Shown: piece after piece, positions 1,256-63,383 of the stretch | Layout: each line of letters begins with the position of its first letter | Numbering within the stretch: position 1 is the stretch's first letter | From: Manduca sexta | Taxonomy: Eukaryota; Arthropoda; Insecta; Lepidoptera; Sphingidae | Direction of reading: 5' to 3' | NCBI RefSeq assembly: GCF_014839805.1 | Contig: NC_051135.1 | Location: 12,465,291-12,529,290 of the forward strand | DNA: 64,000 nt | Position numbers and translations under genes: made by a program | Notes under the pieces: generated by a model | Seen by the model: only the letters and a program-made list of their open reading frames with translations | Databases searched by the model: none | What the model was told of the DNA's origin: nothing

Positions 1256-1503
1256 ATTCCAGTGAAGATGATTTTGCTGACCCGAAAACAGCATACTTCG
1301 TAGAAACCTCCAGAGGTGGTTTGATACTCATTTACAAAGGGTTCCGATACAGGAGAGAGCATAAAGTAAAAAGCGGTAGACGGTGGGTTTGCTCTGTTAA
1401 CAAATACTGCAACGCCTTCCTCACCTTGACGGAGGACAACGAGATCACCAAAGTCCGTGCCAATCATAACCATCCGAAAACACCAATAAAGATACGTTTG
1501 TGA
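1256..1503 (+). CDS. mod(mdg4): FLYWCH alternative terminal exon 1 (+)
   Basis: This exon encodes an alternative C-terminus with one FLYWCH C2H2 finger, the zinc module used by mod(mdg4) isoforms for DNA or protein contact in chromatin. It opens at an AG acceptor (1254-1255) with two bases that complete a split codon (Asp if the upstream base is G) and stops with TGA at 1501-1503. Counting the junction residue as 1, an acidic lead (SSEDDFAD) is followed by the strand motif RGGLILIYKGFRYRR, Trp44-x-Cys46, Cys52 and His71-Asn-His73. The polypyrimidine tract is weak. A start codon at 1246 lies upstream of the acceptor and is probably intronic. The finger is clear; membership in mod(mdg4) is inferred from the array. 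Confidence 0.82.
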
Positions 1504-2263
1504 TACATAGTATTTCTTGTAAGTACCTTTATGTACTAAGTACTTTCGAAACGTGGTCAAAGATCAAGTTAGAATTACTGGCATGGCTTGAAGAAATGAA
1601 GTTCTTGTATATTAAATATACTTATCAAAGTAATAAAAAATATTACAATAAACTCGTATTCACTGAAACTGACCTGTCCTCTTGTATACCTTAAGATTTT
1701 CTCTCTATTTAGCAAAAAAATATTTACGATTTTTATGTTTACGCAAATGTTCGACATTGACATAAAATTATTTTTACAAGGCGGACAGTTAGTGCTGTAA
1801 AATTTTTGAAACGTCGGAAGAAAATGATAATAAGTATAAAAATCGTAAAAATTCGTAATAATAGTTTTATTTTACGATACTTATGGAATAACTTATGTTC
1901 TATGTTTTGAAGTCAGGTCGTTGGTCCCTCACACCGTTAGAGTGCAACTCAGTGACATGTTAGTCGTGGAGACGGCGAGAACCGGTTTTCAGAAACGGCG
2001 GGCTAGATTCAACGCCCACACGCTTCCATTATGAAAGGCGATAATGTGAAAATTACGTTATAGATATCCAATATGGAGACGCATATAATTTATACATACA
2101 TAAGTACAAGTATATGAATACCTATCTTAACCGGTCAATGTTACAGAAAATCGAGAATATTATTGTAAACCCAAAAATTTACAGTACACATTCAAGTAAT
2201 AAATCGCAGTAAAAAAATAATAATTTTAAAATTGGGCCTAAATATAAAAAAAAATATTTTCAG
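1504..2263. other. Intron, nothing recognised
   Basis: About 760 bases without a supported exon. A somewhat GC-richer patch near 1915-2040 shows no open frame with zinc-finger spacing. The end carries the good acceptor tract 'aaatattttcag'. Confidence 0.5.
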
Positions 2264-2580
2264 ACGACAGTGACGAGGATTACGATGAAAATTCAAAGGA
2301 CGTGGCTATATTCTTGAAAACGCATAGAGGAAGCATGTTATTAAAGTTAAATGGATATAAATATCGTAAAACATATAAAACAAAACACGGGACACGCTGG
2401 GTTTGCTCGTCGAACAAGTATTGCTCAGCCCACCTGGTCGTGTCGGACATGGATGAGATCGTGGCGGCGTGCGAGGTCCACAATCATAATAAAACTAAAT
2501 CTGCGAAGACTTTGGCAAAACCGCTTGCAAAAAAAGGTAATTTAACAACATTCACTTACACAATAAACTATATTTTATGA
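2264..2580 (+). CDS. mod(mdg4): FLYWCH alternative exon 2 (+), possible internal donor
   Basis: The exon begins after the acceptor at 2262-2263 in phase 1 and carries a strongly acidic lead (DDSDEDYDEN), then SMLLKLNGYKYRK, Trp46-x-Cys48, Cys54 and His73-Asn-His75, a complete FLYWCH finger. Read through, it stops with TGA at 2578-2580 after a basic tail (KSAKTLAKPLAKK). It also contains a good donor, AAG|GTAATT, at 2536/2537 that cuts after the first base of a codon. This is exactly the phase needed to join the next exon at 2670. It can therefore serve either as a terminal exon or as an internal exon of a two-finger isoform. The acidic lead resembles that of the exon at 1256, which suggests a tandem duplication. 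Confidence 0.85.
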
Positions 2581-2669
2581 TGAAGTAAATAAGATCTAAA
2601 TTTATTGAGCATTTGAACCCCATTTAAATAATATTGCTGATTCTACCATCTATTTCTGTTATGAAACAG

Positions 2670-2962
2670 AAAAGGCAGTGCTGGTGATATCTCGCAACGG
2701 TAACATCAACTTAATACATAGAAAATTCGCCTATCGCAAGAAGTACTCCGGGACTGACAGAAGTCGATGGGTATGCGCCACGGAGAAGGCTTGCCGCGCC
2801 TGCATATTTGTAGACAATGATTACCACGTGGTCTCAGGCATTATGGACCACATGCACTCACCCCCGAAGATTCATAAAAGCCTCTCGGACCTCCCGCTAT
2901 TAGATGAGAAAGGGAACAAAATCAACAAAGAAGACATATACAAACGTGATGAATCAAATTGA
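2670..2962 (+). CDS. mod(mdg4): FLYWCH alternative terminal exon 3 (+)
   Basis: Acceptor 'tgttatgaaacag' (AG 2668-2669), phase 1, with Glu at the junction. The finger reads NINLIHRKFAYRKK, Trp34-x-Cys36, Cys42 and His61-Met-His63, then a charged tail of about 33 residues to TGA at 2960-2962. AATAAA at 3100-3105 could serve polyadenylation. The exon lies only 133 bases after the possible donor inside the preceding FLYWCH exon, in matching phase. It may be used alone or as the second finger of a double-finger isoform. Confidence 0.85.
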
Positions 2963-4286: not shown

Positions 4287-4543
4287 TAATTCAAATGATG
4301 TCAAAACGAGGCCGCCCGCTCATAATGTACAAAAAGTATACTTATTCCAAATATCCATATCCTCTCAAGAATGGTTGGAGGTGGTACTGTTCCAAGGTGA
4401 AGAATTGCAGAGCATACATCCTGACGACAGACGCCAACCACTTAGTAGCTGTGTCTGGAAAGCACAACCACGCCCCGCCCGCAGAAGACTTCCAGTTGAG
4501 AATACCGATTCGTCTTCCAGTGGGATCTTACTTTAATTTGTAA
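4287..4543 (+). CDS. mod(mdg4): FLYWCH alternative terminal exon 4 (+)
   Basis: Acceptor 'ttattattgcag' with AG at 4285-4286, phase 1 (Val at the junction if the upstream base is G). The finger reads RGRPLIMYKKYTYSK, Trp33-x-Cys35, Cys41 and His60-Asn-His62, followed by about 20 residues (APPAEDFQLRIPIRLPVG) to TAA at 4541-4543. The Met codons at residues 4 and 5 are likely internal. AATAAA at 4842-4847 is a plausible polyadenylation signal. Confidence 0.86.
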
Positions 4544-6087: not shown

Positions 6088-6341
6088 TTAAACAACTTTG
6101 AAGGAGCCATCCTTGCGCCGGTAGAATCCTGGAGGAGGATGATTGTGGTTGTTACGTACCCTTTTGATGAGGTTTCCAAGTCTGTGCACAACTGTTGTGA
6201 CATCAACATGGCAGCCAGTTTTAGTACGAGATGTACAGTACCATTGTTTCTTTCCATAAGCCAGTTTGTTTTTTAGACGGAATGCAAATCCTTCGTAGAC
6301 TAACAGCAAGCTTCCTTTTCTCGTTGGAATGAAGTTTGCAA
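6088..6341 (-). CDS. mod(mdg4): FLYWCH alternative terminal exon (-) inside the + block
   Basis: On the minus strand the acceptor 'aatattattttcag' ends at 6342, and the exon opens in phase 1 (Val junction). The finger reads PTRKGSLLLVYEGFAFR, Trp34-x-Cys36, Cys44 and His66-Asn-His68, with a tail PPPGFYRRKDGSFKVV before TAA at 6088-6090. It is a complete finger with no breaks. It is the only minus exon among + exons to both sides, so it cannot be cis-spliced in the same transcript as they are. Its sequence is closest to the + exon at 21878 (shared PTRKG, and QW-x-C ... R-x-KTGC), which points to an inverted transposition of an exon. Confidence 0.87.
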
Positions 6342-8816
6342 CTGAAAATATTATTTTTGTTAATAAAAGGGATCGAAACGACTTGCCTTATGACTATGAT
6401 AGGTGCAATAGGTCAATAAACTATGCTAATTCTTACAAATATTCTCAAAACTTTTGGCCCCTTCACTCTTCTGAGGTAACTCATATCCCATGGAGATAAA
6501 TAAAACGAAAGGAAAAATACATAATTATATTTATTTACAGTAACAAACTTTTATATCAGTGACTTAGTGCTAATACATTTTAGGGCCTCTACAGTCATTT
6601 ATCGGCCGTGGTATTTTCGTAACAATTACCGATTCCTAATAGTGTTATTAAAATTATAATAAAATACTTTCTAAAAACAAACGCGCGCTTTCTTAACCTA
6701 AACAATTTCACAAAACAACACTTATATTTAATAACGCATACACAACTGTGTAATAACTTGCATAATTGACCGCAAAACTGTTTTATAAAGGTATTATTTA
6801 TCAATACCTTACTAGCTAATTAAATAAATATGATCTAAAAGTCTAAAGAACTAACAAAATAAAGCCACTAGGTATATACGTCATATTACAATGTTGCATG
6901 TTGCAATGGTAAATTCCATGCTATAGATGGAAATAGCTATGACAAGTTCATTATGAACAAACGAGATGGCAATATAGAGTATGTTACAAATATGAGTTCT
7001 CTCATGGACATGAATCTGAACTAAAATTTACATTTCTAAACATAATATAAAAAAGCGTCACGTGAAGTGTTGCCAGGGTATTTGTCAAAAGTAGATTTTT
7101 GTTACCCTGACGTCTAGATACATTGTAAATCTGTGTAAATAGACACTTGTGGATTCGGGTTTGAAATAATTTTACTATATTTAATTATAAGGAATTTATT
7201 TACAGAGCTTATAAGATCGACAGATATTCATCATAAGAATTTCCTTAAGTTTATACACGTATGTCCTATTGATGCTGAAGTTGTTGTATGTACCTATTTC
7301 CTTTTAAAATTTAATATCGGCTAATAGAATAAAATTAAAGCTCTGAATCTGTACTATTATTATGTTTCTAATAAAATTTAAAGTTGTAAACGAAGAATTA
7401 TATTTTTGTATTGTAATATTGGTCAAACTAGTGATTAAACGTCACATTTGATGTGCCGTAGGCATGAAATGTCATTGTCAGATATTTGTAAAATGTTTTG
7501 TGAATTGTGAGGAAGGATGAAAAACAGGGATTTGTTTCTTCGATATGCTTTATCTGGTCATATCTAATTACATTTATCACGATTTAATTATTTGTGCTAA
7601 GTAACATATTTTATGTGATAACTGAAACTGAGTGTTATAGCATACAAAAGATTTAAATTAAAAGTTTGGTTGTGGTGTGAGTTAAATAGTGTGTAGAGTT
7701 TGTGGCCCAAATTGAAGGTTTTCAATTAATTAAGGATTGTTGGTATTGTATCAGTCTGTAGAAGTGACTTTACTGCAAATCTATATTTGTGTAAACAATT
7801 CTTATATACAACATTGTTTATAATTTGTAAATTGTATAATTATTTTAAACTCATGTGTATTGAAAAACATAGATGAAAATAATTTTTTTTTATAAGGAAA
7901 TAGTCTGTTTCCTGCTATAATCTTTTAAAATTATTTAATAATGAAACAACACCATGTAGTATTCTTCTGTGGTTCTACTAAGTAGGTACTGGTGTTAAAT
8001 AAAACATAATAATGTGTAAATTTATGTATTATTGTAATTCCGTTAATTATCAACACATATTTTTCGTTATCTAAGGTAAATTTTAACATAACTTTACATA
8101 ATGAACAACATACTTCTAAAATTAATACTACAAATACTCAAACTGTAGATATAAAATACTTACAAAAGTGTAAGTTTCATACAAAACAATACAAATAATT
8201 TTTAATTTTACCCACCTTGATACCGCTACTACTCTAAGAGAATTTGTTGCAGCAGCAACATCATATTTTCAGTTAGAAATATACTTACCATATGCACACA
8301 CAATATTCATACTAAACTACAAAATTATCAAAAAATCAGGGGAGTAAAATTGAGGTTTTTGGTGATAATATTCCTTATCCATGGATGATTTTTGGCACAA
8401 TTTTAGCAGTGGTAATAATTTATTAATGCAATGTCAACAACCCTGTATATAACCTTATAGAAATTCCATGAAATCAAAAGTAGGTACTATTAAAATTACA
8501 CTATGCTAGTATAGTGGATAAAAAATTATGGAGAATACACAATGTTTAGCATTAATAGGCTTTTGATATAAAATATGTATTAATTGTTAAATATTATAAA
8601 ATAAAATTAAAATGTAAAAAAAGTGAATTTCAGAAACATTATTTCTCACAACCTAATTAGAACATGATATTTAACTTTTCAGGAAACCAATGTATGGCTC
8701 ACAGAAACGTTTACAATTAAATATTTAAAATTAATAGTGTGTTTATTTTCCTTCCTTCTATAAATATTTTGTTATAACATTGTTTTAACGCATTATAAAA
8801 GTGGCTTTATTTTCAG
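6342..8816. other. Intergenic, head-to-head between opposite exons
   Basis: About 2.5 kb between the 5' ends of a - exon and a + exon. Any promoters for these opposed exons would lie here, but I can point to no defined element. AT-rich, with no exon recognised. Confidence 0.45.
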
Positions 8817-9085
8817 GTATATTCATAAACACAAGAGGGAATTCAAAACTGTTCATTTACCAGAACCACACATTCCGATTTATGTACAAAAAGGCATATG
8901 GAAGTCAGCTGTGGTACTGCTGGTATTTCTTCAGCCGTTGCTGTCCGGCAAAGCTGAGGATTAACAATGCAGGGAAAGTTACAGAGAGCATCGGAAGGCA
9001 CAACCACGACCCTCCTACATGTTGGATGACTCCGGATGGTAAATCGTACAGCCTTCCCCCCCTTCCTGATAAGGGTACATCGTAA
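8817..9085 (+). CDS. mod(mdg4): FLYWCH alternative terminal exon (+)
   Basis: Acceptor 'gtggctttattttcag', AG 8815-8816, phase 1 (Gly junction). The finger shows NSKLFIYQNHTFRFM, Trp33-x-Cys35, a Cys42-Cys43 pair and His62-Asn-His64. The inter-Cys loop is unusually aromatic (WYFFSRCC). A tail of about 25 residues (DPPTCWMTPDGKSYSLPPL) ends in TAA at 9083-9085. AATAAA follows at 9092-9097, immediately after the stop, so the 3' UTR is probably very short. The TPDG tail motif resembles the TPEG/TPKG tails of the minus exons near 60-62 kb. Confidence 0.87.
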
Positions 9086-14614: not shown

Positions 14615-14883
14615 AATACATTGTGTTAGTAAAAGACCAAAGTTATATCCCACATCCGCGGCCGCCGCGCGAAGACCCACCGGAAAGGTTGGAGGGTGGA
14701 CTAAAAAAGCACGTGATAATGCGACTATACCTCGGAGGCAAGAAGAAAATGCCTCAGCGATTGTGTAGAGTGTGTAGCGCGCACCAAAGGAAAAGCCTGA
14801 CAAGTTTCATATGTGCCTCCTGTGGGGTATCATTGCATAGAGGAGACTGTTTCAACAGATATCACAGTTTAGAGAAATATTGA
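14615..14883 (+). CDS. Terminal exon with piggyBac-type C-terminal Cys-rich domain
   Basis: After 'cctttaatattacag' (AG 14613-14614) an exon opens in phase 1 and encodes about 88 residues with no break. Residues 43-89 read as the C-terminal Cys-rich zinc domain of piggyBac-type transposases: KKK-x-PQRLC51-x2-C54, then TSFIC67-x2-C70-x-VSLH75, then C79F and the ending YH84. The preceding PPERLEGG also fits the linker of that family. No catalytic transposase sequence lies upstream; the neighbouring bases are AT-rich noncoding. Stop TGA 14881-14883 is followed directly by AATAAA at 14884-14889. It shares acceptor phase with all FLYWCH exons, so it looks like a transposase tail used as an alternative C-terminus. 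A truncated transposon relic is the alternative. Confidence 0.7.
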
Positions 14884-15614
14884 AATAAATATTTTGATTA
14901 ATATTTCTGCTATTATTGTTACGCTCACGAAAAGAATTAAATTTTATTTAAGAATAAGAATTGCCAACTATAAATAGGGGCAAAGCGATAGTGCGGCCGA
15001 TATCTTGTTCTTTTCTGTAGCTCTGTAGTGATGAACTTATCCGTCACAGAGCTTGCAATAAAGACCAATCAAAATTCTATAGTTTCTGGCCGTACTATCT
15101 GTGTATCTCTCTCAAACTTTATACCTACATTCAATCTCAGCTCAAAAGCTACAGTACATTGTCTTCTGTCTAAATAACAATGATGGATAGTTTCGGCACA
15201 ACGTGGTCCAATTAAGGGCGGTGTGCGCTACACTGGGTAATTTTTATTCAATTGAAAATTAAGTTGGATATTGATTAAAAAACCATTACTGTGGAATTGG
15301 TCATGATTGCTGTCATGTCTCGAACTCACCGAAGAACTGATTGATCTCCAATATTACAATGATCTGTACAACTGAATGATGATTGAATACTGTTGCTAAG
15401 TAATTCCAGTCTTCTATGCGTCATCGCAACTTTTGCCAAATACATGTTAATAAGAGACTTTGTTTGTTACAAATTTTTTATTTCGAGTATGTAAAATATT
15501 TGTAATGATGGATGACGACATCGACTTCTGTATGGATCAATTTTGTTACTTTACAATACCCTTTTTGAAGAAGGTTTATTAAGTCGTCGTCTTCGTAAGC
15601 TAGGAACACTTCAG
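14884..15614. other. Interval between two Cys-rich exons
   Basis: No exon seen. A weak pair of inverted segments (gatagtgcggcc near 14990 and ggccgtactatc near 15090) could be a short MITE but has no clear ends. Confidence 0.4.
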
Positions 15615-15859
15615 TAATATCAAACATTTCAATTAGGGATAGAAAAAAGAAAAAATATAAACTGAGAAGCAAATTTAAAAAAAAGATATTCAGTCCTGCG
15701 GCATCTGAGATCCCGGAGAGGCAAGAGAGGCGTACAAGATGGCTTGTGAAAATAGACCGCCCTGGGAATAAATCAAGCATGAAATGTTATATATGTTTGA
15801 GAACGGTTTGTGCTCAATGTATACGAACAAAATTGTATTTATGTAAAATATGCAACTAA
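15615..15859 (+). CDS. Terminal exon with short Cys-rich (piggyBac-tail-like) domain
   Basis: An open frame from acceptor 'aggaacacttcag' (AG 15613-15614, weak tract), phase 1 (Val junction), to TAA at 15857-15859. A lysine-rich lead is followed by SEIPERQERR, then SSMKCYIC, RTVCAQC and LYLCKIC. It matches the minus-strand exon at 43652 closely (EIPERQ, KSS-x-KC-x2-C, VC-x2-C, LC-x2-C), so the frame is real coding sequence. It lacks the first Cys of that copy (TRWLVK in place of RRCQVK), which may impair one zinc site. The domain resembles degenerate piggyBac C-terminal Cys clusters. The acceptor choice is the weakest part. Confidence 0.6.
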
Positions 15860-16105: not shown

Positions 16106-16296
16106 AGCTTGTACGAGAGTATACGAAAAGTGGTAGACCAGTGTTAAGAGTAGGAGCATACAGATACATAGTGCACATTATGTCCGGGCGAAAGATCAGT
16201 TGGCAATGCTGCAAGCAGAAGCAAATGGGCTGCAAGGCCAGGCTCATAACCTTTGACTACGTCATCATCAGGAGTGGTGGTAAACATAACCATTAA
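16106..16296 (+). CDS. mod(mdg4): FLYWCH alternative terminal exon (+), duplicate A
   Basis: Acceptor 'ttatttgcctttcag' (AG 16104-16105), phase 1 (Glu junction). A minimal exon of 191 bases that ends right at the finger: GRPVLRVGAYRYIV, SWQCC, GCKARL, then KHNH and TAA at 16294-16296. The W-x-C, GC-x-A and H-N-H ligands are all present. It is paralogous to the exon at 17989, with the same length and about 46 of 62 residues identical by my count. The downstream flank is also partly shared. Confidence 0.86.
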
Positions 16297-17988: not shown

Positions 17989-18179
17989 AACTTGTACAAG
18001 AGTACACGAAGAATGGTAGACCAGTTTTAGTATTGAAAGGATATCGATACATCGTTCACGTCATGGCAGGACGGAAGATCAGATGGCAATGCAGTAAGCA
18101 GAAGCAGATGGGATGCAAGGCCAGGCTAATGACCTACGACAACGTCATTATCAAGAATATTGGTAAACATAACCATTGA
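17989..18179 (+). CDS. mod(mdg4): FLYWCH alternative terminal exon (+), duplicate B
   Basis: Acceptor 'ttaaattgtttttcag' (AG 17987-17988), phase 1 (Glu junction). The product has the same 62-residue frame as duplicate A: GRPVLVLKGYRYIV, RWQCSKQKQMGCKARL, KHNH, TGA at 18177-18179. This copy keeps the more typical Lys-Gly-Tyr strand and Ser after the first Cys. The finger ligands are intact. Divergence from duplicate A lies mainly in the first strand and in the loop before KHNH, where binding specificity could differ. Confidence 0.87.
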
Positions 18180-20823: not shown

Positions 20824-21185
20824 TTGACGCCGAATTCATACAATTGAGCAATGGGAGATACCTTCTTTTACATGACGGATACACCTTCTGGAAAACGAAT
20901 CATTATAAAGCAGTAAACAATAGTATTCGATGGTACTGTTCCTCGAGAAGCCGAGATAAATGCGCAGTTTCTCTTTTGTGTGACGGAAAGCACATTCTTG
21001 AAATAAAACATGTTCACAATCATCCTGCACCTAAGTTATGGTTGGATTCCAAAGGACGATACATAAAATATGCACACCCGTGTCCAAGGAGTCGCAAACC
21101 TGAGTTGCGACCGTTTCAAACTACATCAAACATGGGAATGAACCCATTGTTATTTAAAAATGTTCGATTTCTTAGGAGTCAGTAG
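20824..21185 (+). CDS. mod(mdg4): FLYWCH alternative terminal exon (+), long tail
   Basis: Acceptor 'aatttaatttgttttag' (AG 20822-20823), phase 1 (Val junction). Encodes about 120 residues, the longest FLYWCH exon here: SNGRYLLLHDGYTFW, RWYCSSRSRDKCAVSL, then HNHPAPKLW, and a basic tail of about 55 residues (SRKPELRPF and so on) to TAG at 21183-21185. The Trp, two Cys and His-Asn-His are all present. AATAAA at 21262-21267. The Arg/Lys/Pro tail is not part of the finger and could be an added nucleic-acid-binding or localisation segment. Confidence 0.87.
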
Positions 21186-21877: not shown

Positions 21878-22098
21878 ATGACGATATAGTGCAGTGTGTA
21901 CCGACCAGGAAAGGGCATCAGATATTGTACAAAGGTTATACTTATGTGTTCAAAAGTAGGTTGCAGTGTGGAGCTGAACAGTGGATTTGCTCTTTCAGAC
22001 AAAAAACTGGATGCATATCGGTGATAAACATGCAAACGTACGGTGTGGAGGTGGTCAGAGACTTCCACAATCACAAAAAACCAATGTTTTGCGATTAG
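21878..22098 (+). CDS. mod(mdg4): FLYWCH alternative terminal exon (+)
   Basis: AG at 21876-21877, phase 1 (Asp junction), then DDIVQCVPTRKGHQILYK, a Tyr-rich strand, QWICSFRQKTGC and FHNHKKPMFCD, with TAG at 22096-22098. The ligands are Trp-x-Cys, Cys and His-Asn-His. It is the last single-finger + exon before the BED module. Its closest relative in the window is the minus exon at 6088, which shares PTRKG, QW-x-C and KTGC. Confidence 0.87.
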
Positions 22099-23057: not shown

Positions 23058-23444
23058 AAGAACAGTTGCCAGAGTGGGCTTCCATTTACTACCTTAAGGA
23101 CTTGACGAAAGAGAACATAATGAAATGCAACCTCTGTGACATCATCATCAATGCTGATGAGAAGTCTCTCCTCCTCTTAGACCACATCAAAGATAAGCAT
23201 AAAGAAGTGTTTGATGTCCACAAAGATAACCCAGAAGCAAATATTGGGTTTCGCATAGAGTTCCTGCATTTGAATGTTATGAAAGACGAGGAAGATCCTA
23301 AATCAGAACCAATTTTACTGGGGGAAGTGTGTGAGACTACCAGTGAGCCACTGGTGAAGGTTCCAGAACCTGCTACCGACAAGGATGATGAGGTCAACAC
23401 GCAGTATGTGATGAATAAGAAAAAAAAGAAGAAGGATTCATCAG
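23058..23444 (+). CDS. BED-type zinc finger exon 1 of 4
   Basis: Acceptor 'tattatttacag' (AG 23056-23057), phase 1, and donor CAG|GTTAGT at 23444/23445, also phase 1; the exon is 387 bases, a whole number of codons. It encodes WASIYYLKDLT, then KCNLC (Cys-x2-Cys) and HIKDKH, the pattern of a BED finger (aromatic residues, C-x2-C, H-x4-H), with 'LLLLD' where the usual Asn-Leu helix start stands. A long acidic linker and a Lys run (NKKKKKKDSS) follow. BED fingers bind DNA and occur in transposases and in chromatin proteins. Because the entering acceptor has the same phase as all FLYWCH exons, this may be an alternative C-terminus of the same gene. An independent gene with a distant 5' end is the alternative. 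Confidence 0.75.
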
Positions 23445-23894
23445 GTTAGTTGTTGTTCAATATCTTCATAGGCATACATTTATTTCATAGCACTGTCTTT
23501 ACTAATGCTTACCGACATTCATGGTGTAATGTTTGTTGATGAACTTTACCTACCTTCAAAACCCTGTACAATTGTTAGAGTGAGTAATAGTAATCTATAA
23601 TTTTATTAATCTCATTGTTTTTATCACACTTATTCTAATCCTAGTGGATTTGAACCAAAATCCCAAAGGTCTTTTTTCCTATTATTATACCAGGACAGTA
23701 ATACCACACATTATAAATAGTTTCATCAAAATCATAAAAAAGTAAATGAAAGAGGAACTTGTTTATCAATTTTACCATAAAATAACTGGAAATGATATAT
23801 ATTTTTCTTCTGTATTGTTTAAGTTGTCAATGCACTGGTTGCATTGCGTATCCATATAAATGCATAGACTTATGTGTATATCCTTTCATTCCAG
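23445..23894 (+). other. Intron of BED module
   Basis: A 450-base phase-1 intron from 'gttagttg' to 'cctttcattccag'. No other content recognised. Confidence 0.7.
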
Positions 23895-31860: not shown

Positions 31861-32096
31861 TTACACGGGGGGCTTGGGTCCGCAATTGTGTGTGCTTTGG
31901 ATGTAAACTATCCTGCCTCTGTAAGTATGTAGCGCCGCCTTGCACCATGGCCCCCGGGAGCATCGCCAGCGGATCTTGCCGTTTCTGGCACACCCGTTGA
32001 ATCGGAATCTGTAGCCGCCTACATTGATGCCCATCTTTCCCTGCTTGCTGAGGCAGTAGGACGCAAAACAGTCTATCCCCGTCCCGATGAGACCAA
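31861..32096 (-). CDS. mod(mdg4): FLYWCH alternative terminal exon (-), His-x-Cys variant
   Basis: Minus-strand acceptor 'aaaatatttgttgcag' ends at 32097; the exon opens in phase 1 (Val junction) and runs 77 codons to TAA at 31861-31863. There is no suitable start codon at the beginning, so a start-based search misses it. The finger reads KMGINVGGYRFRFN, IRWRCSRGPWCKAAL, TYRGRIVYIQSTHNC, then GPKPPV. The usual final His is Cys, so the zinc site would be Cys2HisCys rather than Cys2His2. Frame and splice phase are intact. It is the leftmost exon of the minus block apart from the one at 6.1 kb. Confidence 0.82.
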
Positions 32097-33000: not shown

Positions 33001-33212
33001 TACGTACAGCAGTGGTCAAGGTTTCATATAACTCGATGCCTGCCTTCTCTTTATGTTGAATTTATGTCGAATTATCATTAGAACGATTAGCAGACCACGT
33101 TCATTAATATCAGCACATATATGTTATGTGCCCTTTCGGATAATGTCACTTCGTCACTGACAGCATTTTTAATGCCGTGGTTGCAAATGATAGTATTTAA
33201 AGCATGGGTTGA

Positions 33213-33536
33213 CGCATAGGGTCGGCTTCTCCGGACAGACGGCGCAGAAGAACCTGCTCTCTCTCCGTCGGGTTTGCTTGCTGCAGACTCGACATCGGCG
33301 TGTCGGCGCCAGCTTCTTATCGGATGGCGGCAGATAGTCCAGATAGTGGAAACCTGAGCAGAAAGGAGTTTATTATACGTTTTAGAAAAGAAAGAAACAA
33401 AAACCATTTGGCCATTCTTTGGACCAGATGGCTAAAAATAATAGGTATACACGCAGTAGACAAATATCTAACACCTGATAATAGGCGTATTGAAAGGGTT
33501 GGCTGGGTGGTCCGTGCCCACGCCAGAATTTCTTAG
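33213..33536 (+). other. Open frame of unknown nature
   Basis: An uninterrupted frame that ends at TAG 33534-33536 and reads, among others, SRKEFIIRFRKERNK, LAILWTRWLKIIGIHA and VGWVVRAHARIS. Composition is coding-like, but I know no family for it. An AG at about 33325 would give a phase-1 entry. It might be transposon-derived. Confidence 0.25.
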
Positions 33537-35446: not shown

Positions 35447-35697
35447 CTAAAGTGGGTCGGATTGTTGATCCCCAAACACAATTTCAGATTTACAAGTGTG
35501 AGGACGAAAATACTCGTCGTTGGACAAAACCACGACGCCGTCGAGGGTCTTCACCATGGCCATGCATTTCAGAGATTTCCTATACTTACAATACCACAGC
35601 TGCACCTTTTTCCTTCGGTAGGCATTATGGGCATTGTACAGATGGTCTCTATAATGTAGCTTTGGATAGGCATTGCCCGTAATATATACTAGTTGTG
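35447..35697 (-). CDS. mod(mdg4): FLYWCH alternative terminal exon (-), His-x-Cys variant
   Basis: Acceptor 'tgtttttatttttcag' ends at 35698; phase 1, here with Ala at the junction. It runs 82 codons to TAG 35447-35449 with no start codon near the 5' end. It reads YPKLHYRDHLYNAHNAYRRK, QLWYCKYRKSLKCMAM, then YFRPHTCKSEIVFGDQ. The Trp, two Cys and His are present, but the last ligand is Cys in place of His, as in the exon at 31861. The first strand (PKLHYRDHLY) is diverged from the usual Gly-Tyr. No stop interrupts it. Confidence 0.78.
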
Positions 35698-38477: not shown

Positions 38478-38674
38478 TCAATGATTGTGCATGTCAGTAA
38501 GCTTGACGATAACGTTCCCTTCAGTGATGGCGATGGCGCGGCACTTGTTGAAGCACTTGGAGCATCGCCAGCGCGTTCTGCCTTGTCTGCTGACGTAGTG
38601 CCTCATGAACCGGTTCTTGCCGATCATAAGTACGACTCGCCCGTTGCGCTCCGTGAAGATGGTTGCTTGCGTAC
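38478..38674 (-). CDS. mod(mdg4): FLYWCH alternative terminal exon (-)
   Basis: Acceptor 'cacgcaacatttttag' ends at 38675, phase 1 (Gly junction). A minimal exon that ends at the finger: TERNGRVVLMIGKNRFMR, TRWRCSKCFNKCRAIAI, then DMHNH and TGA 38478-38480. There is a third Cys in the loop (CSKCFNKC), giving a choice of spacing for the second ligand. Clearly GC-richer than its flanks. Confidence 0.87.
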
Positions 38675-40872: not shown

Positions 40873-41519
40873 TTAAATATTTGTAGCTACGTCATCACTA
40901 TTATTATTCTGAGGGGCATTCAAATTAACAAGTTCTTCTTGACCTACATCAATATTAGGTTCTAACTTGTCCAAACCCAGGTCATTCGTAAAATCGTCAG
41001 TTACATTTATAAATATATTATCTGTATTGAAATCGCTCGTATCCAAATTCTTATTGTTAGTTTGTGAATGTGTTATCACAGGAGCTGCTATCGATGACAC
41101 AGATGGCAGAGAGTTGCCATTATTAATATCATTCTGAATATTATTCAGAGGATCGTCTAAATGTGAATTGTAATCTTTATCGTCATTAGTCTCTAAAGGT
41201 AACGAAGTGAAGATAAAGTTCTGAACCAAGGAATTCTGTTGTTGTTGGAATTTCTCCAATTCTAATTCTTCTCCGTCTGACAATATTTCTATTGGTGCTT
41301 CATCTCTCACTACTTCTATAACGTCGTCGTCTGAAGCATTATCTTGGATGGTATCTATTGCAGAACAGTTTGCGTTCACTTCGTTAATAACATTTGTGGT
41401 TACGGTGGTTGTAGTGGAACTGGTAGCCGCTGTTACGGTAGAAGTGACAGCTGTGGTAGCAACAGAAGTGGTCGCAGACGTCGTGGCAGAAGTTGTGGTA
41501 GGATTTGCTACGTCCTTGC
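40873..41519 (-). CDS. Thr-rich / acidic alternative terminal exon (-), no zinc finger
   Basis: Acceptor 'tttttgttataggc' puts AG at 41520-41521; phase 1 (Gly junction), about 214 residues to TAA at 40873-40875. The first 45 residues are almost only Thr, Ser, Ala and Val. Then come two hydrophobic clusters in acidic surroundings, DDDVIEVVRDE and IEILSDGEELE, which look like SUMO-interaction motifs. A Gln run (EKFQQQQNS) and a long Asn/Asp-rich disordered tail follow. No FLYWCH or other metal ligands. Its splice phase and position between FLYWCH exons suggest an isoform-specific C-terminus for protein contacts rather than DNA binding. The Thr tract shows short tandem codon repeats. It could instead belong to another gene. 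Confidence 0.65.
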
Positions 41520-42811: not shown

Positions 42812-43005
42812 CTATTTAACGCTATGGTTATGCTGGTTGCTGACTATAATCTTGCCGTGGACAATGTGGACCTTACATTTGCACGCGTAAGTGCCTCGTT
42901 TAGAACACCGCCAGTAACTCCTCAGATGGGTTCCATACTCCCGGTGGAATCGGTGACCATTGAGCAGCAGCACTTGACCACCTTTTACTGTCGTAAAAAT
43001 CTCAC
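42812..43005 (-). CDS. mod(mdg4): FLYWCH alternative terminal exon (-)
   Basis: Acceptor 'gtatccgtatcag' ends at 43006, phase 1 (Gly junction). It reads FTTVKGGQVLLLNGHRFHRE, YWRCSKRGTYACKCKV and NQHNHSVK, with TAG at 42812-42814. The ligands are Trp-x-Cys, Cys (CKC pair) and His-Asn-His. Short, like the exon at 38478, with three residues after the last His. No defects. Confidence 0.87.
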
Positions 43006-44093: not shown

Positions 44094-44290
44094 TTAGTGA
44101 TTATGGTTGCCTAACTCAGAGATGAATCCACCAATCTTGTAGATTTTCGCTTTGCATTGGGGCGTGCTATAATAGTGAGTGCAATACCATATACTCCTAT
44201 CGTTCGCAGAGTTGGTTCGCTTGTTGTACCTGTAATTACCGACGTGCATTATAAGTCCTCCACGCTGCGAAGTAGAGTAGAAGAGATTAC
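44094..44290 (-). CDS. mod(mdg4): FLYWCH alternative terminal exon (-)
   Basis: Acceptor 'ctgttgtaataattccag' ends at 44291, phase 1 (Gly junction). It reads TSQRGGLIMHVGNYRYNK, IWYCTHYYSTPQCKAKI and ELGNHNH, with the stop TAA at 44094-44096. AATAAA overlaps the stop (44090-44095 on the minus strand), so the 3' UTR may be minimal. The inter-Cys loop is long and aromatic. The Met at 44324 lies upstream of the acceptor and is probably intronic. Confidence 0.86.
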
Positions 44291-44520: not shown

Positions 44521-44768
44521 TCAATTGACTAGATCGAACGGTGATTCCCATTGGACTATTTTGTACTTAAGACTACCGATTGGATGGTTGTGGTCGTTTT
44601 TTAAACTGACGATCTCGTCGTCTATAGTGTGGACCTTGGCGGTGCAGTCGGCATGGGTGGCACACTTCCAAGTCTTTTTTACGTGTTGGAGACAGTAGGT
44701 CCTGCAGATGAAGGCATATCCGTCTACTATGAGGTGTCGCGTTCCACGAGCCGATGTTTTGTAGTATA
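44521..44768 (-). CDS. mod(mdg4): FLYWCH alternative terminal exon (-)
   Basis: Acceptor 'gcatatttcttttacag' ends at 44769, phase 1 (Val junction). The finger reads GTRHLIVDGYAFICR, TWKCATHADCTAKV and NDHNHPIG, then about 18 residues (LKYKIVQWESPFDLVN) to TGA 44521-44523. All four ligands are present. The tail is longer than in most minus exons, and its use is unknown. Confidence 0.86.
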
Positions 44769-45081: not shown

Positions 45082-45287
45082 TCATCGATGGTTGTGTTTT
45101 GTTTGCAAACTGTCAACGCCGTCACTTAGATTGTCAGATAGAGTTATGATTCGTGCTTTGCATCCCTTGCGCGCATAACTACACGACCATTGGACCTTTC
45201 CACTCGTGTAAATCCAAGTTTTGCTAAACTTGTGCCCTTTGTAGATAAGCTGAATGGTTTGTCTTCTTCTTGCCCAAAATTTAATAA
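45082..45287 (-). CDS. mod(mdg4): FLYWCH alternative terminal exon (-), no internal start codon
   Basis: Acceptor 'aatttctttgttatag' ends at 45288, phase 1 (Val junction). It runs 67 codons without a start codon to TGA 45082-45084: IKFWARRRQTIQLIYKGHKF, VQWSCSYARKGCKARI, then a longer loop (LSDNLSDGVDSLQ) and KHNHR. Complete finger ligands. Its GCKAR segment and KHNH end resemble the + exons at 16106 and 17989, again linking the two strands. The acceptor ends in ATAG with a modest tract. Confidence 0.83.
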
Positions 45288-46005: not shown

Positions 46006-46043
46006 TATTTCGATGTCTCATATTCGCGTAAACATAAGCAGCC

Positions 46044-47780: not shown

Positions 47781-48019
47781 CTAGGCTTGACTCGCGTGTA
47801 TTTGTTTCAAAAACTTGTCCATATGGCAATGTTCGTTGTACATGGCAACTATTTGCTCGATGTTCACCGAGTCTGTCTTGATGAACGCCTTGCACCCAGT
47901 CCTGGTCCTCCTGGAACAGTGCCACAGGATCCCGCTCTTCGACAGAACCTTGTACGTGTAAGTCTGGTTTTCGTACTTTAATAGGGGATGCTTCCCTTTC
48001 CCCGATGGGATTAGGATGC
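47781..48019 (-). CDS. mod(mdg4): FLYWCH alternative terminal exon (-)
   Basis: Acceptor 'acgaataatttatttccag' ends at 48020, phase 1 (Gly junction). It reads SGKGKHPLLKYENQTYTYK, ILWHCSRRTRTGCKAFI, then YNEHCH and a tail MDKFLKQIHASQA to TAG 47781-47783. The final ligands are His-Cys-His, with Cys at the usual Asn position. The frame is open for 78 codons, and the only Met is late, near the finger's end. GC-rich compared with flanks. Confidence 0.85.
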
Positions 48020-49447: not shown

Positions 49448-49839
49448 TTATAAACCTGGAATTGTCTTTCCAGGAATCCCAAGGGTATCTTGCAAAAATT
49501 GCTTACACACTTTAACGGTTTTGGTGCCATCGCATAAATAATAATTATAAGACCATTTACGACGAGCTGCCACTCGCTTTTTTCGAGTACTGCATTTTCT
49601 TACACAACTAAGAAGCCACTCTTTTCGATTCTTTGAACTTCGTAATCCCCAGTAAGTCTTGTGAATGCGCTTGCGTTCGGCTACACTGAACTTATTGCCA
49701 CAATCGTTATCACATCTCTTTCCTAGACAGAGATTTGTCTCATTAACTTTACGTCTTTTGGGCATTATGCGGGATTTGTTTAACTTTTTTGATGAATTAT
49801 CTGATCTATAACTTAATCGAACCATCAAATAAGATTCCT
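49448..49839 (-). CDS. Cys/Arg-rich alternative terminal exon (-), copy 1
   Basis: Acceptor 'attctgtttgtttcag' ends at 49840, phase 1 (Glu junction), about 130 residues to the stop at 49448. It encodes NLCLGKRCDNDCGNKF, ERKRIHKTYWGL, EWLLSCVRKC and a basic RKKRVAARRKW, then KTVKVCKQFLQDTLGI. I recall this C-x4-C ... YW-x-L ... VCK-x2-F-x2-TL-x-I pattern from uncharacterised arthropod proteins, some transposon-associated; its function is unknown to me. Its paralogue is the exon at 51642. It shares the acceptor phase of the FLYWCH exons and looks like another alternative C-terminus. The many Cys and His suggest metal binding. Confidence 0.72.
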
Positions 49840-51641: not shown

Positions 51642-52054
51642 CTAATGATATAATTGTACATTAGGATATATCACACGAGTAATTCCTAGCGTACTTTGCA
51701 GAAATTGCTTACAAACTTTAACGGTTTTAGTGCCATTGCTTATATAATAATTGTAAGTCCATTTACGACGATCACTTGCAGCACGCTTTCTACGAATACC
51801 ACATTTTCTTACACAGCTAACAAGCCAATCTGTTTGTTGCTTTAAAGTTCCTAATCCCCAATAAAAATTGTTAATATATTCTCTTTCTGCTTCAGTGAAA
51901 TTGTTGCCACAATCGTTGCCGCATTTCTTTCCTAGACAGGGATTTGGCCCGATGGCTTTGCGTTTTTTGGATAATTTTGTAGATTTTTTATACTTCCTTG
52001 ATGTTTTAATATCTGATCCACAACTCACGAACCGACCAATCGAATCGGACTCCT
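51642..52054 (-). CDS. Cys/Arg-rich alternative terminal exon (-), copy 2
   Basis: Acceptor 'gttttgtttatttcag' ends at 52055, phase 1 (Glu junction). It encodes about 137 residues: an EESDSIGRF lead, Lys-rich KYKKSTKLSKKRK, NPCLGKKCGNDCGNNF, FYWGL, DWLVSCVRKC and RRKW, then KTVKVCKQFLQSTLGI, and a short different end (YPNVQLYH). Cys positions match the copy at 49448. The two acceptors and leads are also alike (EES), so the whole exon was duplicated. No breaks. It is the outer member of the pair, about 1.8 kb away. Confidence 0.73.
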
Positions 52055-52375: not shown

Positions 52376-52749
52376 CTATCGCTTTCGACCTTCCATAAAA
52401 TTTATTTTTTGTGATTAATGAGAAATCGTAATAAATTAAAATGTATAACAATTGATTTGTCATTTTTTAATGTAGTGAACTTCATGTTCCATACTTCAAT
52501 AAAATGTAAGAGCATGGTTGTTTTTATTTTTATCTAAAGTCTTTGATGTAAGGGTAAGGATGCATCGAAAAAGTCGCGAGTTTTTTTATCGCAAATCCCG
52601 CACCTTATTCCTTATTTGCAGCTTGCTTCCATCTTATAGTATTATTAACAAATTTAACGCGAATTTTCTCGACACATCGGGCTCTTGTACACTACTGACA
52701 CGATTATAACACAAATGCATAATGTATTTTTTATCATCTGAATATATAA

Positions 52750-53068
52750 TATCAGCCCTGTATTATATACTGTTCTACTGTTGGGCACGGGAATCCTCTA
52801 CTACTGAGAGGGATTAGGCCTTAGTCCATCACGCTGGCCTAGTGCGGATTGGTAGACTTCACACACTGTCGAAATTCCTATAGAGAATTTCTCAGGTATA
52901 CAGGTTTCCTCACGATGTTTTCCTTCACCATCAAAGCAAGCGATAATTCATAAAGAATAGACACATATTTTTTTTGAAAAGTCAGAGGTGTGTGCCCTTG
53001 GGATTTGAATCTGCGGACATTCGTCTCGGCAGTCCGTTCCACAATCAACTAGGCTATTGCCGCTTTTT
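52750..53068 (-). repeat. tRNA-derived SINE with 14-bp TSD, copy 1
   Basis: Flanked by ATCTGAATATATAA at 52736-52749 and 53069-53082. On the minus strand the head reads 'gcggcaatagcctagttgat' and a B-box-like 'agattcaaatccc' follows. The body is shared with 59974-60306. Confidence 0.8.
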
Positions 53069-55975: not shown

Positions 55976-56232
55976 TCAATAGTTAAACGAGCTTTGGAGT
56001 TCGGTTTTGTTGGAGACCGTCATTAATTGCAGTTTCGGTGGCGTATGATCGTGAGGTTTGTGAGCGTAGGCCTTGTTCCCGAAGCTGATAGCTGATGCTC
56101 TGCAGCCCTTGAGCCTCCTGGAGCAATACCAGGACACTCTGCCGTCAGCATTCTGCTTCTGATAGCTGTAGGTGTACCCCGAGAGCAAGAGTAGAGGATG
56201 TTTGCCTCCTCTTTTAGTCCAGAGAAAGGTCC
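55976..56232 (-). CDS. mod(mdg4): FLYWCH alternative terminal exon (-)
   Basis: Acceptor 'atcgcacctgtccacag' ends at 56233, phase 1 (Gly junction). It reads FLWTKRGGKHPLLLLSGYTY, SWYCSRRLKGCRASAI, KPHDHTPPKL and a tail (MTVSNKTELQSSFNY) to the stop at 55976. Ligands are Trp-x-Cys, Cys and His-Asp-His. Its GGKHPLL and GKHPLL in the exon at 47781 suggest common descent. The real 5' end is the acceptor, upstream of the first in-frame start-like codon. Confidence 0.86.
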
Positions 56233-58357: not shown

Positions 58358-58548
58358 CTACGAATGATTATGCTCTAAAAAAGATCTGACTATGACGGAG
58401 TTGTGCGTGGTGATGCTGGCCCTGCAGCCGAGCTGGATCCTCTTGCAGCAGGTCCACCGAATCTTCTTCCTGTAGCACTCGTGCTTGATGAACTTGTGGT
58501 CGCCCACGTGGACCACCAGGTGCCCGCGGTTCGATAGCCCGAAACGCA
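58358..58548 (-). CDS. mod(mdg4): FLYWCH alternative terminal exon (-)
   Basis: Acceptor 'cttatctttcccttccag' ends at 58549, phase 1 (Val junction). It reads RFGLSNRGHLVVHVGDHKF, IRWTCCKRIQLGCRASI and FLEHNHS, with TAG 58358-58360. The 191-base exon ends one residue after the last His, as compact as the + pair at 16106 and 17989. It is strongly GC-rich against an AT-rich background. Complete ligands, no defects. Confidence 0.87.
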
Positions 58549-59973: not shown

Positions 59974-60306
59974 ATAAAAATAATAATAATATCAGCCCTG
60001 TATTATATACTTGCCCACTGCTGAGCACGGGCCTCCTCTACTACTGAGAGGGATTAGGCCTTAGTCCACCACGCTGGCCTAGTGCGGGTTGGTAGACTTC
60101 ACACACCTTCGAAATTCCTATAGAGAACTTCTCAGATGTGCAGGTTTCCTCACAATGTTTTCCTTCACCGTTAAAGCGAACGATTAATTCACAAAGAATA
60201 CACACATGATTTTAGAAAAAAGTCAGAGGTGTGTGCCCTTGGAATTTGAACATGCGGACATTCGTCTTGGCAGTCCGTTCCACACCCAACTAGGCTATCG
60301 CCGTTA
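59974..60306 (-). repeat. tRNA-derived SINE with 11-bp TSD, copy 2
   Basis: Flanked by TTCTTATCTTA at 59963-59973 and 60307-60317. The body matches 52750-53068 ('ctgagagggattaggcctta' and so on). The insertion lies about 100 bases past the stop of the exon at 60404. Confidence 0.8.
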
Positions 60307-60403
60307 TTCTTATCTTAGCTAACGTATAATTATCCAAATAAATACTTCATTCGACACAATATACCAACTTTTCACCATATAAAATTATCAATAAGCCTAG
60401 CCT

Positions 60404-60633
60404 CTAAACTCTAACATAATATCCCTCAGGAGTGACATAATACTGAGGAGGTGAGTGCTCATGATCTCCTCTCGCGCGTATGAGGTTACCATCGAAGCCA
60501 ACCGAGAGGTACGCACCGCACCCCGAGCTGCAGCGCCATATCTCCGACTTAGATGTCCGTTTTATTAAACGGTACGTAAACATGTTGTACATATAAAAAA
60601 TCCTGCCGTTGAGGTACTCTATCTTCCTTAGAT
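60404..60633 (-). CDS. mod(mdg4): FLYWCH terminal exon (-), short-loop subfamily A
   Basis: Acceptor 'atgatcattccgtttcag' ends at 60634, phase 1 (Asp junction). It reads RKIEYLNGRIFYMYNMFTYR, IWRCSSGCGAYLSV (Cys-x3-Cys, shorter than in the other exons), GDHEHSPPQYYV and TPEGYYVRV before the stop at 60404-60406. The Cys-Ser-Ser-x-Cys loop and the TP-x-G-x-Y-V tail define a subfamily with the exons at 62299 and 63151. Its upstream intron starts directly with LINE sequence. Confidence 0.86.
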
Positions 60634-60641
60634 CTGAAACG

Positions 60642-60830
60642 GAATGATCATCATCAGCCACATAAAGTCCAATGCTGAACATAAGCCTCTCCTAAACATT
60701 TCCAAACAGACCTGAAGAAAGCGGCCTGCATCCAGCGTGTACCTGTGACCTTTATCAAGTCGTCTGTGCACCTTGCAAGTGGACCTCCAACGCTGCGCCT
60801 ACCGGTACGTGGTCTCAAATATATGAAAAT
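60642..60830 (-). mobile_element. LINE 3' fragment (inverted)
   Basis: 'gatcatcatcagccacataa', 'ctgaacataagcctctccta' and 'ctacgctgcg'-like blocks are the reverse of the RTE-like LINE tail at 50990. It sits only 8 bases from the acceptor of the exon at 60404, so it may supply part of that intron's 3' region. Confidence 0.6.
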
Positions 60831-62298
60831 AGTAGTATAAGAATGAGTTGGTGAGACTCTTTTTTCCAAAGAGTTCACAAACATATGAATGTTTTTCAAA
60901 TTATTAAAAATAATGTCCTTATCTAAAGTTTTACAATTTTAGGGTGATCTAGGGAGGCGAGGTTCCGCTATTTGATACATAACGCGCCGCAGATGAGACT
61001 GGTTTGGGTTAATATAGATGGATCGAATTTGTTATAAGAACTGCGATCAGGCGTGCGGCTATGCGCCCGTAGATTCGAGCAGTAAAAGGCCAAGTAGAAC
61101 ATTAGGTTATCCCTAACCTTCGAGCAATAATAATATGCAATGTGCCCTTTGCTACGCACAAAGAAAACTTTATAAAATATTATCTCGTTGGTTCAGAATG
61201 ATATTTGCCACTATCTACATTCGTTCAAAACTGATGAATCAATCATTCAGAAGTAAGTAATAATACCATTTCAGAATTTGATTACGTATATTTGAGACAT
61301 AAATTATTTGAAACATATGAGAATATAAATCTTAATTCTTAAAACATTAGGTATAATATACATATTAGATAAAGATCTAAGGGTCTATACAGACATCGCG
61401 TTTTGCACGCACGCATTTTATCATGCAAAAGTGGATACACAGTTCATAAGTGCTTCGCATTTACTCCGCGTTTTAGTTGCAGTTGTAGCGCGTGATCGGG
61501 TTGTTTAAAAACTTCGTTTGCATAGACAGTAAATGGAGGATGGCTTTTATGACACTAATTTGAGAATATACATGTAATATTCCTACTTATAATATAAAAG
61601 GTTAATAAAACATTATTGTACAATGCGGTATGTTTTTACCCAACAAAACACGTTGATATGACCCTTACAATATAATCATTTTGTAACATTCACATACCAT
61701 AATTAATGCTAATGTTTTTAAAACTTAATAATGCCTGCATTCTTTCACTTGGCGACAGGAAAACACAAAGATGATTAGTTTATAGTTTTTTAAGAAATAA
61801 TGTGTCCATATTAATTCTTCTACAATGAATTATTCTTTATAGTATTTTCAATACAATTAGGCGGTAAAAAAAGTTTCCTTACCAATATTAATATTAAATA
61901 AACTTTAGTCAAAGTAGTTATACAATGGTTTAAATTCTTTGCAGAATAATTTTGCAGATGTATCAAAATTTACAACATAGATGAAAAAAATGAGATCAAT
62001 TTATTCTAACCTTCAAATTCTATTCATAAATACACCTACGATACATATATTATTCTATTGAAGTACAAATAACGAAATTGAGTATTAAAATATTTAATGA
62101 AATATTGAACATTTAGAGTAGGCGCACACGGGCGGTTATATGATCGGCTGTTGACACTAAACCTTTCTGTATACGCACACTTACGGTAATTTTCCCGCAT
62201 GAATTTCTACACAAAAATATTGGTACGGTTATTGAATCGCTCGTGCGTCCCTACCCCTAATCTTAATAACAGCTACAAAAAGCTACAGTATAATACAA
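60831..62298. other. Interval between subfamily exons
   Basis: AT-rich; a patch around 61380-61520 looks repeat-derived. No exon recognised. Confidence 0.45.
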
Positions 62299-62531
62299 TT
62301 AAAGCTTGACGTACACGCCTTTCGGTGTGACAAAATACCTCGGTGGGGGGTGTTTATGCATCCCCCTGGCAGTGAGTAGGCGGCCATCATTACTGACGAA
62401 TATGTAGGCGGCACAGCCTGAACTGCAGCGCCATCGCTCGCTAAACGTCGTCTTACCGGTCAAGTAATAAGTGTAATTTTCGTACATGTACTGAACTTTG
62501 CCGGTCTCCAGTTTAATTTTCTTGAGTAAAA
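62299..62531 (-). CDS. mod(mdg4): FLYWCH terminal exon (-), short-loop subfamily B
   Basis: Acceptor 'aatataagacacatttcag' ends at 62532, phase 1 (Val junction). It reads KKIKLETGKVQYMYENYTYY, RWRCSSGCAAYIFV, GMHKHPPPRYFV and TPKGVYVKL before TAA at 62299-62301. The same Cys-Ser-Ser-Gly-Cys loop as in the exon at 60404. The exon has exactly the length (233 bases) of the broken copy at 63151, from which it probably arose or with which it shares a recent ancestor. All ligands intact. Confidence 0.86.
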
Positions 62532-63150
62532 CTGAAATGTGTCTTATATTAGTTGAAATAGTGTTAGGTTAGTATTACTATTACTACGTTCAACGCTTAC
62601 ATATTTACTAAAATATATAATAAATAATATTGTTGACACTTAATTATTTTTAGTAATTTTTGTGCTCTTGTTTCTACACTATAAATTAAAATATAAAACA
62701 TTAAATTATTTTTATGGTGAACATATTTTAATATTTTTCATACATTTCTGGAACTTTTAATCATACAATTTGTAATTGATAATTTGTGGCAGTCATCGGA
62801 AAACTATTTTTTGTGTGCAATCTTTTTTTTGAAGTTGCTATAAAATTGATAGGTAAAATATGAAACCTATAACATGAAAAAAAGGGAAAAAACTAAAAGG
62901 TCGCAAACAGGAATTGATTGTTTGACGATTCCCACAAATTAACAATTTTGGAATGGGTCATTACTTTATTAAGAGTGCGATGTATGTGTAACGTTATATC
63001 GAACAATAAATTAGTCGTATCGAATGTGTTAGTTTCCGTATAGAAGAAGCCCTGAAACTCTCTAAAATAATATTTCATTTGGAGCAAGCCTGGTCTCATG
63101 TCGAGGCTATAAGTCTGCGTCAACATTTTTCCATCAAATATATGCATTTA
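62532..63150. other. Interval between subfamily exons
   Basis: AT-rich, no exon or repeat recognised. An open minus frame at 62893-63147 has no family signature. Confidence 0.45.
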
Positions 63151-63383
63151 TCAGTTGATTTTAATATAAACACCGTCTGAACTAATATGGAACGCAGGCG
63201 GTGAATGCGTATAATCTCTCGCGTACAGTAGTTTTCCATCAAACGATACCTTTATGTAGGCTCCACATCGAGAACTGCAAGTCCATCTCTCATATCGTCG
63301 AGTTTTGTTCGTAAAGGTGTATAGTTTGTACATGTAATAAGTTTTGCCATGGTTTTATTTTCTTGCTTTTATTTTCTTTATCT
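63151..63383 (-). pseudogene. mod(mdg4): FLYWCH exon (-), short-loop subfamily C, broken
   Basis: A splice acceptor 'aacaattcttccag' ends at 63384 and a phase-1 frame of 233 bases follows, like the exon at 62299. The ninth full codon, at 63355-63357, is TAA. I find no other AG that would enter the finger frame downstream of it. Beyond the stop the frame reads KTYYMYKLYTF, RWTCSSRCGAYIKV and YTHSPPAF, with one residue missing so that the first His of His-x-His is gone, then SSDGVYIKIN. Two independent lesions (stop and lost zinc ligand) mark a decaying exon. A protein started at the internal ATG (63331-63333) is possible but would lack the fusion. Confidence 0.75.

Follow-up and report, generated by a model that had tools for sequence, protein, structure and literature searches.

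A probable mod(mdg4) acceptor array in Manduca sexta, with FLYWCH and transposon-type tail exons on both strands

A stretch of 64,000 nucleotides from Manduca sexta (RefSeq assembly GCF_014839805.1, contig NC_051135.1, positions 12,465,291 to 12,529,290 of the forward strand; hereafter the window, in whose own coordinates all features are given) very probably belongs to the mod(mdg4) locus and covers part of its array of alternative 3' exons; mod(mdg4) is a gene reportedly treated in both Diptera and Lepidoptera by Krauss and Dorn in 2004. The initial annotation of this DNA had proposed a lepidopteran mod(mdg4) locus with about thirty alternative terminal exons, and there is good support for its identification of the array as lepidopteran mod(mdg4) acceptors: the domains, an excess of one splice phase, a match to the M. 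sexta protein MSEX001999 and BTB-joined relatives all agree. The intact terminal exons or units number 28, of which 22 are of the FLYWCH type, and one more exon is decayed, which bears out the figure of about thirty. The locus is of a known kind, to which an explicit map of the exons and their acceptors is now added for one more moth.

Open reading frames (ORFs) in six frames were searched with a FLYWCH motif and then with an iterated profile, which finds FLYWCH in 23 ORFs, 22 of them intact and one decayed (63151-63383), and which is circular in that it was built from the exons themselves. All 22 intact exons, the number given in the initial annotation, were also tested; nine lie on the plus and 13 on the minus strand. 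The test was made with Pfam PF04500, whose cut-off is passed by 19. Two ORFs fall just under it (8789-9082 and 62302-62568), and a third, 60407-60691, gives no PF04500 match and is a close relative of 62302 in the exon tree. The decayed copy, on the minus strand, has no Pfam match. Exons are cited below by the coordinate of their acceptor end, and those of the FLYWCH type are as follows, each with its Pfam value.

1256..1503, plus: FLYWCH terminal exon; 3.1e-10; second phase-1 acceptor at 1292
2264..2580, plus: FLYWCH terminal exon; 4.1e-9; phase-1 tttcag, not the top-scoring AG
2670..2962, plus: FLYWCH terminal exon; 6e-7
4287..4543, plus: FLYWCH terminal exon; 5.4e-10
6088..6341, minus: FLYWCH terminal exon; 1e-11; the sole one on the minus strand in the left half
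8817..9085, plus: FLYWCH terminal exon; 22.5 bits, just under cut-off
16106..16296, plus: FLYWCH terminal exon; 1.3e-12; duplicate of 17989
17989..18179, plus: FLYWCH terminal exon; 7.6e-15; duplicate of 16106
20824..21185, plus: FLYWCH terminal exon; 8.8e-10
21878..22098, plus: FLYWCH terminal exon; 1.9e-7; immediately before the BED unit; at least 60% identity in seven lepidopteran gene models
31861..32096, minus: FLYWCH terminal exon; 8.6e-9; phase-1 AG not top-scoring
35447..35697, minus: divergent FLYWCH terminal exon; 3.5e-7
38478..38674, minus: FLYWCH terminal exon; 1e-10; phase-1 AG not top-scoring
42812..43005, minus: FLYWCH terminal exon; 6.1e-13
44094..44290, minus: FLYWCH terminal exon; 4.7e-7
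44521..44768, minus: FLYWCH terminal exon; 6.7e-11
45082..45287, minus: FLYWCH terminal exon; 1.4e-10; groups with 21878 (plus)
47781..48019, minus: FLYWCH terminal exon; 2.4e-10
55976..56232, minus: FLYWCH terminal exon; 1.5e-7; 67-88% identity in four BTB-less lepidopteran gene models
58358..58548, minus: FLYWCH terminal exon; 2.5e-9; 85% identity in one Helicoverpa gene model
60404..60633, minus: FLYWCH-type terminal exon of a tandem triplet; own profile and tree; no Pfam match
62299..62531, minus: FLYWCH terminal exon of the triplet; 22.6 bits, just under cut-off; own profile and tree
63151..63383, minus: FLYWCH exon of the triplet, decayed; in-frame stop close to the 5' end, zinc-binding His replaced

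The two strands are largely segregated, with plus-strand exons in the left part and minus-strand exons in the right part, 6088-6341 being the exception. The exon tree, which leaves 13 of its 20 inner branches without resolution and has a number of long end branches, needs five strand changes, of which at least two are forced by well-supported branches. Exons 21878 (plus) and 45287 (minus) form a well-supported group that spans both strands (97/84), and 60633, 62531 and 63383 form the tandem triplet.

Non-FLYWCH tails were sought among 178 ORFs of at least 58 residues, of which 144 were scanned with Pfam and 34 that overlap FLYWCH exons were dropped. Among the 144, zf-BED is found in four ORFs at E ≤0.05, two of them above cut-off, and zf-Tnp_2 in two ORFs above cut-off. 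The resulting exons are as follows.

23058..23444, plus: BED exon 1, internal; Pfam 0.0089, under cut-off; phase-1 donor at its end; part of MSEX001999
23895..24170, plus: BED exon 2, internal; Pfam 2.8e-10; part of MSEX001999
24583..24753, plus: BED exon 3, internal; Pfam 1.4e-7; part of MSEX001999
26233..26444, plus: BED exon 4, terminal; Pfam 0.0025, under cut-off; phase-1 AG not top-scoring
14615..14883, plus: piggyBac-type cysteine-rich (zf-Tnp_2) terminal exon; PF13842 1.3e-5; phase-1 acceptor
33169..33353, minus: piggyBac-type cysteine-rich (zf-Tnp_2) terminal exon; PF13842 1.1e-8
49448..49839, minus: terminal exon with an unnamed Cys-rich domain; phase-1 acceptor
51642..52054, minus: terminal exon with the same unnamed domain; diverged duplicate of 49448-49839; relative P0002 at E 1e-24
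40873..41519, minus: acidic, Thr/Asp/Asn-rich candidate terminal exon; 215 residues without a domain; good phase-1 acceptor

Exon 33353 matches the piggyBat transposase in PDB (E 3.2e-4), and its phase-1 acceptor is the sole AG in the stretch searched. The unnamed Cys-rich domain gave a weak structure model (mean predicted local distance difference test score 62) and no credible PDB match by structure (best E 4.5) or by sequence (best E 0.38). The acidic exon is the least certain part of the map. ORF 15599-15856 was considered as a further cysteine-rich tail and rejected, its best acceptor being in phase 2 and the ORF having no match to the cysteine-rich profile.

A single splice phase is common to these exons. 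Acceptors were ranked with a simple score devised for this analysis; the best AG ahead of the domain was taken, and the nine non-FLYWCH search stretches were set by hand. The top-scoring AG lies in phase 1 for 19 of the 22 FLYWCH exons (18 with a slightly longer search stretch) and for eight of the nine others. When the exons are pooled, without the decayed one and ORF 15599-15856, 27 of the 31 intact ones have it in phase 1, where chance would give 1/3 (binomial p 9e-10), and 63 of 166 control ORFs have their best AG in phase 1 (Fisher p 3e-7 against the exons). None of the 31 lacks a phase-1 AG, in agreement with the initial annotation, which stated that such an acceptor fits every exon; the four whose top-scoring AG lies in another phase have a phase-1 [CT]AG as well. 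For three exons the acceptor given is a phase-1 site other than the top-scoring one: 21878 was chosen over a phase-1 AG at 21860 after lepidopteran relatives, 6341 over a phase-1 AG at 6386 by eye from its context, and 1256 after the initial annotation and the similar start of exon 2264. BED exons 1-3 each have a phase-1 donor ahead of the next in-frame stop (TCAG/GTTAGT, ATTG/GTGAGT and CCCG/GTATGT). It had been stated that all exons except these three end in a stop; the three donors bear out one half of that statement, and the other half is uninformative, being true of any ORF.

The joining of the BED exons is directly visible in an annotated protein. MSEX001999 (327 residues) is 100% identical to the window in four pieces that cover the whole protein, and its sequence is contained without a difference in BED1-4 joined at the predicted phase-1 sites, where 21 additional residues precede it. 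The database presents MSEX001999 (window 23058-26444) as a stand-alone BED protein. Judging by its splice phase and its relatives, it is probably a mod(mdg4) tail whose gene model misses the BTB part. A query string of six window exons retrieved 52 proteins, 51 of them with a source name and all 51 from what we take to be moths or butterflies; in nine of the 52 a BTB start stands ahead of the BED unit. Comparison of 12 window exons with the 52 proteins gave seven exons with relatives of at least 60% identity (in 7 proteins for 21878, 4 for 56232, 1 for 58548, 2 for BED1, 28 for BED2, 44 for BED3 and 17 for BED4) and none at that level for 17989, 20824, 33353, 60633 and 62531, counts that reflect a query of only six exons and are no survey of conservation. 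In a Helicoverpa armigera gene model, P0004, the BED unit is joined to an 85% relative of 58548, an exon that lies on the opposite strand here; this arrangement could be a strand switch between species, or a model or assembly error.

The link to BTB was then approached from the other side. A 281-residue common BTB part finds 1962 proteins at E ≤1e-30, and the best 120 of these together with the nine BTB+BED proteins form a set of 129 isoforms. The residue that follows GDAQ at the junction is V in 38, G in 33, D in 22, E in 19 and A in 17; that is to say, the junction codon starts with G in 129 of 129, which fits one shared phase-1 donor. Pfam domains among the best 120 of the 1962 are FLYWCH (100), homeodomain (3), zf-Tnp_2 (2), Psq (1) and DUF4806 (1). 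The closest link to the window is P0070, an assembled sequence in which BTB is joined, at the predicted junction, to a tail 96% identical over 89 residues to exon 8817, from residue 1 to residue 1. P0070 appears to be RNA-derived, because its 1252-base contig barely exceeds the reading frame.

Related tails are joined to BTB in other Lepidoptera as well. A window match is found for 89 of the 129 isoform tails; the minus-strand exon 6341, for instance, is 44% identical to the tail of P0068. Non-FLYWCH tails are likewise present among these BTB isoforms. Searched against the 129 tails, the cysteine-rich profile built from window sequences alone matches P0135 and P0166 (E 1e-9 and 1e-7), and a profile of the unnamed Cys-rich domain (window sequences plus P0002) matches P0077 (E 3e-7). 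In pairwise comparison, none of the 129 matches the acidic exon 40873..41519, the cysteine-rich exon 14615 or exon 52054. Two further tail types were seen outside the window. P0131, P0140 and P0169 (Cydia) are annotated as mod(mdg4)-type BTB isoforms with a homeodomain end, which is possibly a BTB-homeodomain fusion or a gene-model error. A basic tail recurs in several Cydia isoforms (P0147, P0148, P0157, P0162, P0167, P0168, P0172 and P0173), with no precomputed Pfam domain besides BTB and no credible match in the window.

M. sexta itself has a BTB + FLYWCH protein, MSEX001997 (P0082). This protein and MSEX001999 are each placed on a contig of 2,227,192 bases, which we take to be one and the same. 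Its tail is not in the window and is 58% identical to exon 32096 (31861..32096, minus), a different exon, so at least one further acceptor lies beyond the window. The M. sexta BTB part is 71% identical to the Drosophila Mod(mdg4) sequence used for comparison and 53% to that used for Ttk, and one isoform, P0160, carries the database name 'modifier of mdg4'.

On the mod(mdg4) reading, a common transcript that originates beyond the window would supply the BTB/POZ exons; its donor is probably on the plus strand, left of the window. The common part would stop at GDAQ plus the first base (G) of the next codon, and the phase-1 donor would join one acceptor per product. On the same strand, the BED unit and the 10 single exons that are intact could be reached by cis- or trans-splicing. 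The 17 intact minus-strand acceptors would necessarily depend on trans-splicing of separately transcribed RNAs, as in Drosophila and Danaus, and by that precedent they should be trans-spliced here. Each product would be a BTB oligomeriser that carries a different tail for binding DNA or protein.

Several observations weigh against this reading. Comparison of the BTB part with the window gives chance matches only (best E 1.3), and no RNA read or transcript was seen that joins a minus-strand exon of the window to BTB. The conserved minus-strand exons 55976-56232 and 58358-58548 occur only in BTB-less models, as does the plus-strand exon 21878. Forty of the 129 isoform tails have no window match, and most of the 89 matches are only 30-45% identical, which suggests that the tails turn over fast. 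Few species contributed the 129 isoforms (mostly Cydia, Helicoverpa, Danaus, Nymphalis, Choristoneura and Pectinophora), which have the look of automatic gene models. Nor are poly(A) signals enriched in the 400 nucleotides that follow the exons (20 of 28, against 76% at random).

The alternative that survives best, although we consider it unlikely, is that a second donor gene, BTB or other, lies on the minus strand to the right of the window and that the minus-strand exons are joined to it by cis-splicing, with no need for trans-splicing. The segregation of the strands would suit such an arrangement, as would the lack of a transcript seen to connect minus-strand exons with the known donor. Against it stand the single phase common to both strands and the well-supported tree group that mixes exons of both. 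In Danaus, moreover, RNA data join opposite-strand acceptors to one donor in 33 isoforms, and 14 of 18 mod(mdg4) isoforms were confirmed by reverse-transcription PCR, the strand of the 14 not being stated in the sections of PMC4667647 used here.

Far less probable is the view that these are not exons of one gene but small genes of their own or transposon relics (Mutator, hAT, piggyBac). One FLYWCH copy is indeed decayed, and FLYWCH, BED and zf-Tnp_2 domains are known in transposases too. The origin of FLYWCH is treated in PMC10027918. Against this stand the common acceptor phase, the BTB-fused BED unit and related tails of other species, and the Pfam scan, in which no transposase catalytic domain is among the 25 of 28 matching families listed for the 144 ORFs. 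We likewise hold it very improbable that the locus is lola or another BTB gene with alternative 3' exons: lola is trans-spliced too, and the same isoforms are mostly named 'protein tramtrack, beta isoform' in the database, but FLYWCH occurs in 100 of the best 120 isoforms, C2H2 fingers are present in 17 of 20 lola isoforms (PMC11426971), no classical C2H2 family appears among the same 25 of 28 matching families listed, the weak zf-C2H2_12 match falls in BED exon 2, and the BTB part is nearer to Mod(mdg4) than to Ttk in a comparison limited to these two sequences.

The nearest known counterparts of the array are the mod(mdg4) loci described in other Lepidoptera. According to the portion of PMC4667647 drawn on here, Danaus plexippus, Plutella xylostella and Bombyx mori have one BTB donor and many, mostly FLYWCH, acceptors joined by trans-splicing, with 40, 41 and 9 donor/acceptor combinations respectively. 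Both strands carry acceptors in Danaus and Bombyx, and perhaps also in Plutella; in Danaus, seven isoforms have same-strand and 33 opposite-strand acceptors. The array had initially been called unusually large. Given the counts in Danaus and Plutella, and isoform numbers in the database that run up to X50, its size is ordinary for Lepidoptera. FLYWCH is missing from some isoforms of Drosophila (5 of 31), Danaus (3 of 40) and Plutella (4 of 41) in that account, whose main text counts some non-FLYWCH tails and, in contrast to the map given here, does not contain the word 'BED'.

Drosophila melanogaster mod(mdg4) is similar: it has more than 30 isoforms, mostly FLYWCH, and some of its acceptors lie on opposing strands. 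Every isoform is said to be trans-spliced from one donor to acceptors with their own promoters (PMC12692577, in part). Fly and lepidopteran FLYWCH domains differ in that they fall into separate groups (PMC4667647). One Drosophila mod(mdg4) isoform is said to use a BEN domain (part of PMC5094011), so that DNA-binding tails other than FLYWCH are not in themselves new. Drosophila lola also joins a BTB donor to alternative 3' exons by trans-splicing, with C2H2 tails that are unlike those found here; for lola, allele markers have been used as a test in hybrids or heterozygotes (PMC4667647).

Three repeats were also seen in the window. Positions 34041-34983 hold a tandem pair of 471-base units, 98% identical, which is a recent duplication or an assembly artefact. 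An inverted repeat of 100 bases at 28233-28441 (98% complementary, 9-base loop) is perhaps the relic of a mobile element, and a dispersed pair at 52746-53067 and 59986-60308 (86-89% identical) is a probable transposon fragment.

Less expectedly, the BED, piggyBac-type and unnamed Cys-rich domain exons share the phase of the alternative tails, and by their sequence several tails look like DNA-binding pieces of transposons. FLYWCH, ZBED and Psq are treated as transposon-derived transcription-factor families in PMC10027918, the main text of which mentions neither 'piggyBac' nor 'Lepidoptera'. No open-access paper was found whose title or opening of the abstract describes piggyBac-type, BED or transposase tails of mod(mdg4), which does not imply their absence in print. 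What the present map adds is the presence of transposon-type DNA-binding tails in the common phase, with the same tail types fused to BTB in annotated relatives.

We tentatively propose, at somewhat less than even confidence, that the lepidopteran mod(mdg4) array may be a long-lived capture site for foreign DNA-binding domains, at which every newly arrived exon that has a phase-1 acceptor could become a new BTB fusion, whichever its strand. Uptake would have included FLYWCH (Mutator), BED (hAT-type), piggyBac-type cysteine-rich, Psq and unnamed Cys-rich domains, and even a homeodomain, and trans-splicing would make of these transposon parts a family of chromatin proteins that is renewed rapidly. 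Since a fitting acceptor phase is all that a captured exon would require, whichever strand it lies on, trans-splicing may lower the barrier between transposase domains and host regulators, an idea that can now be tested.

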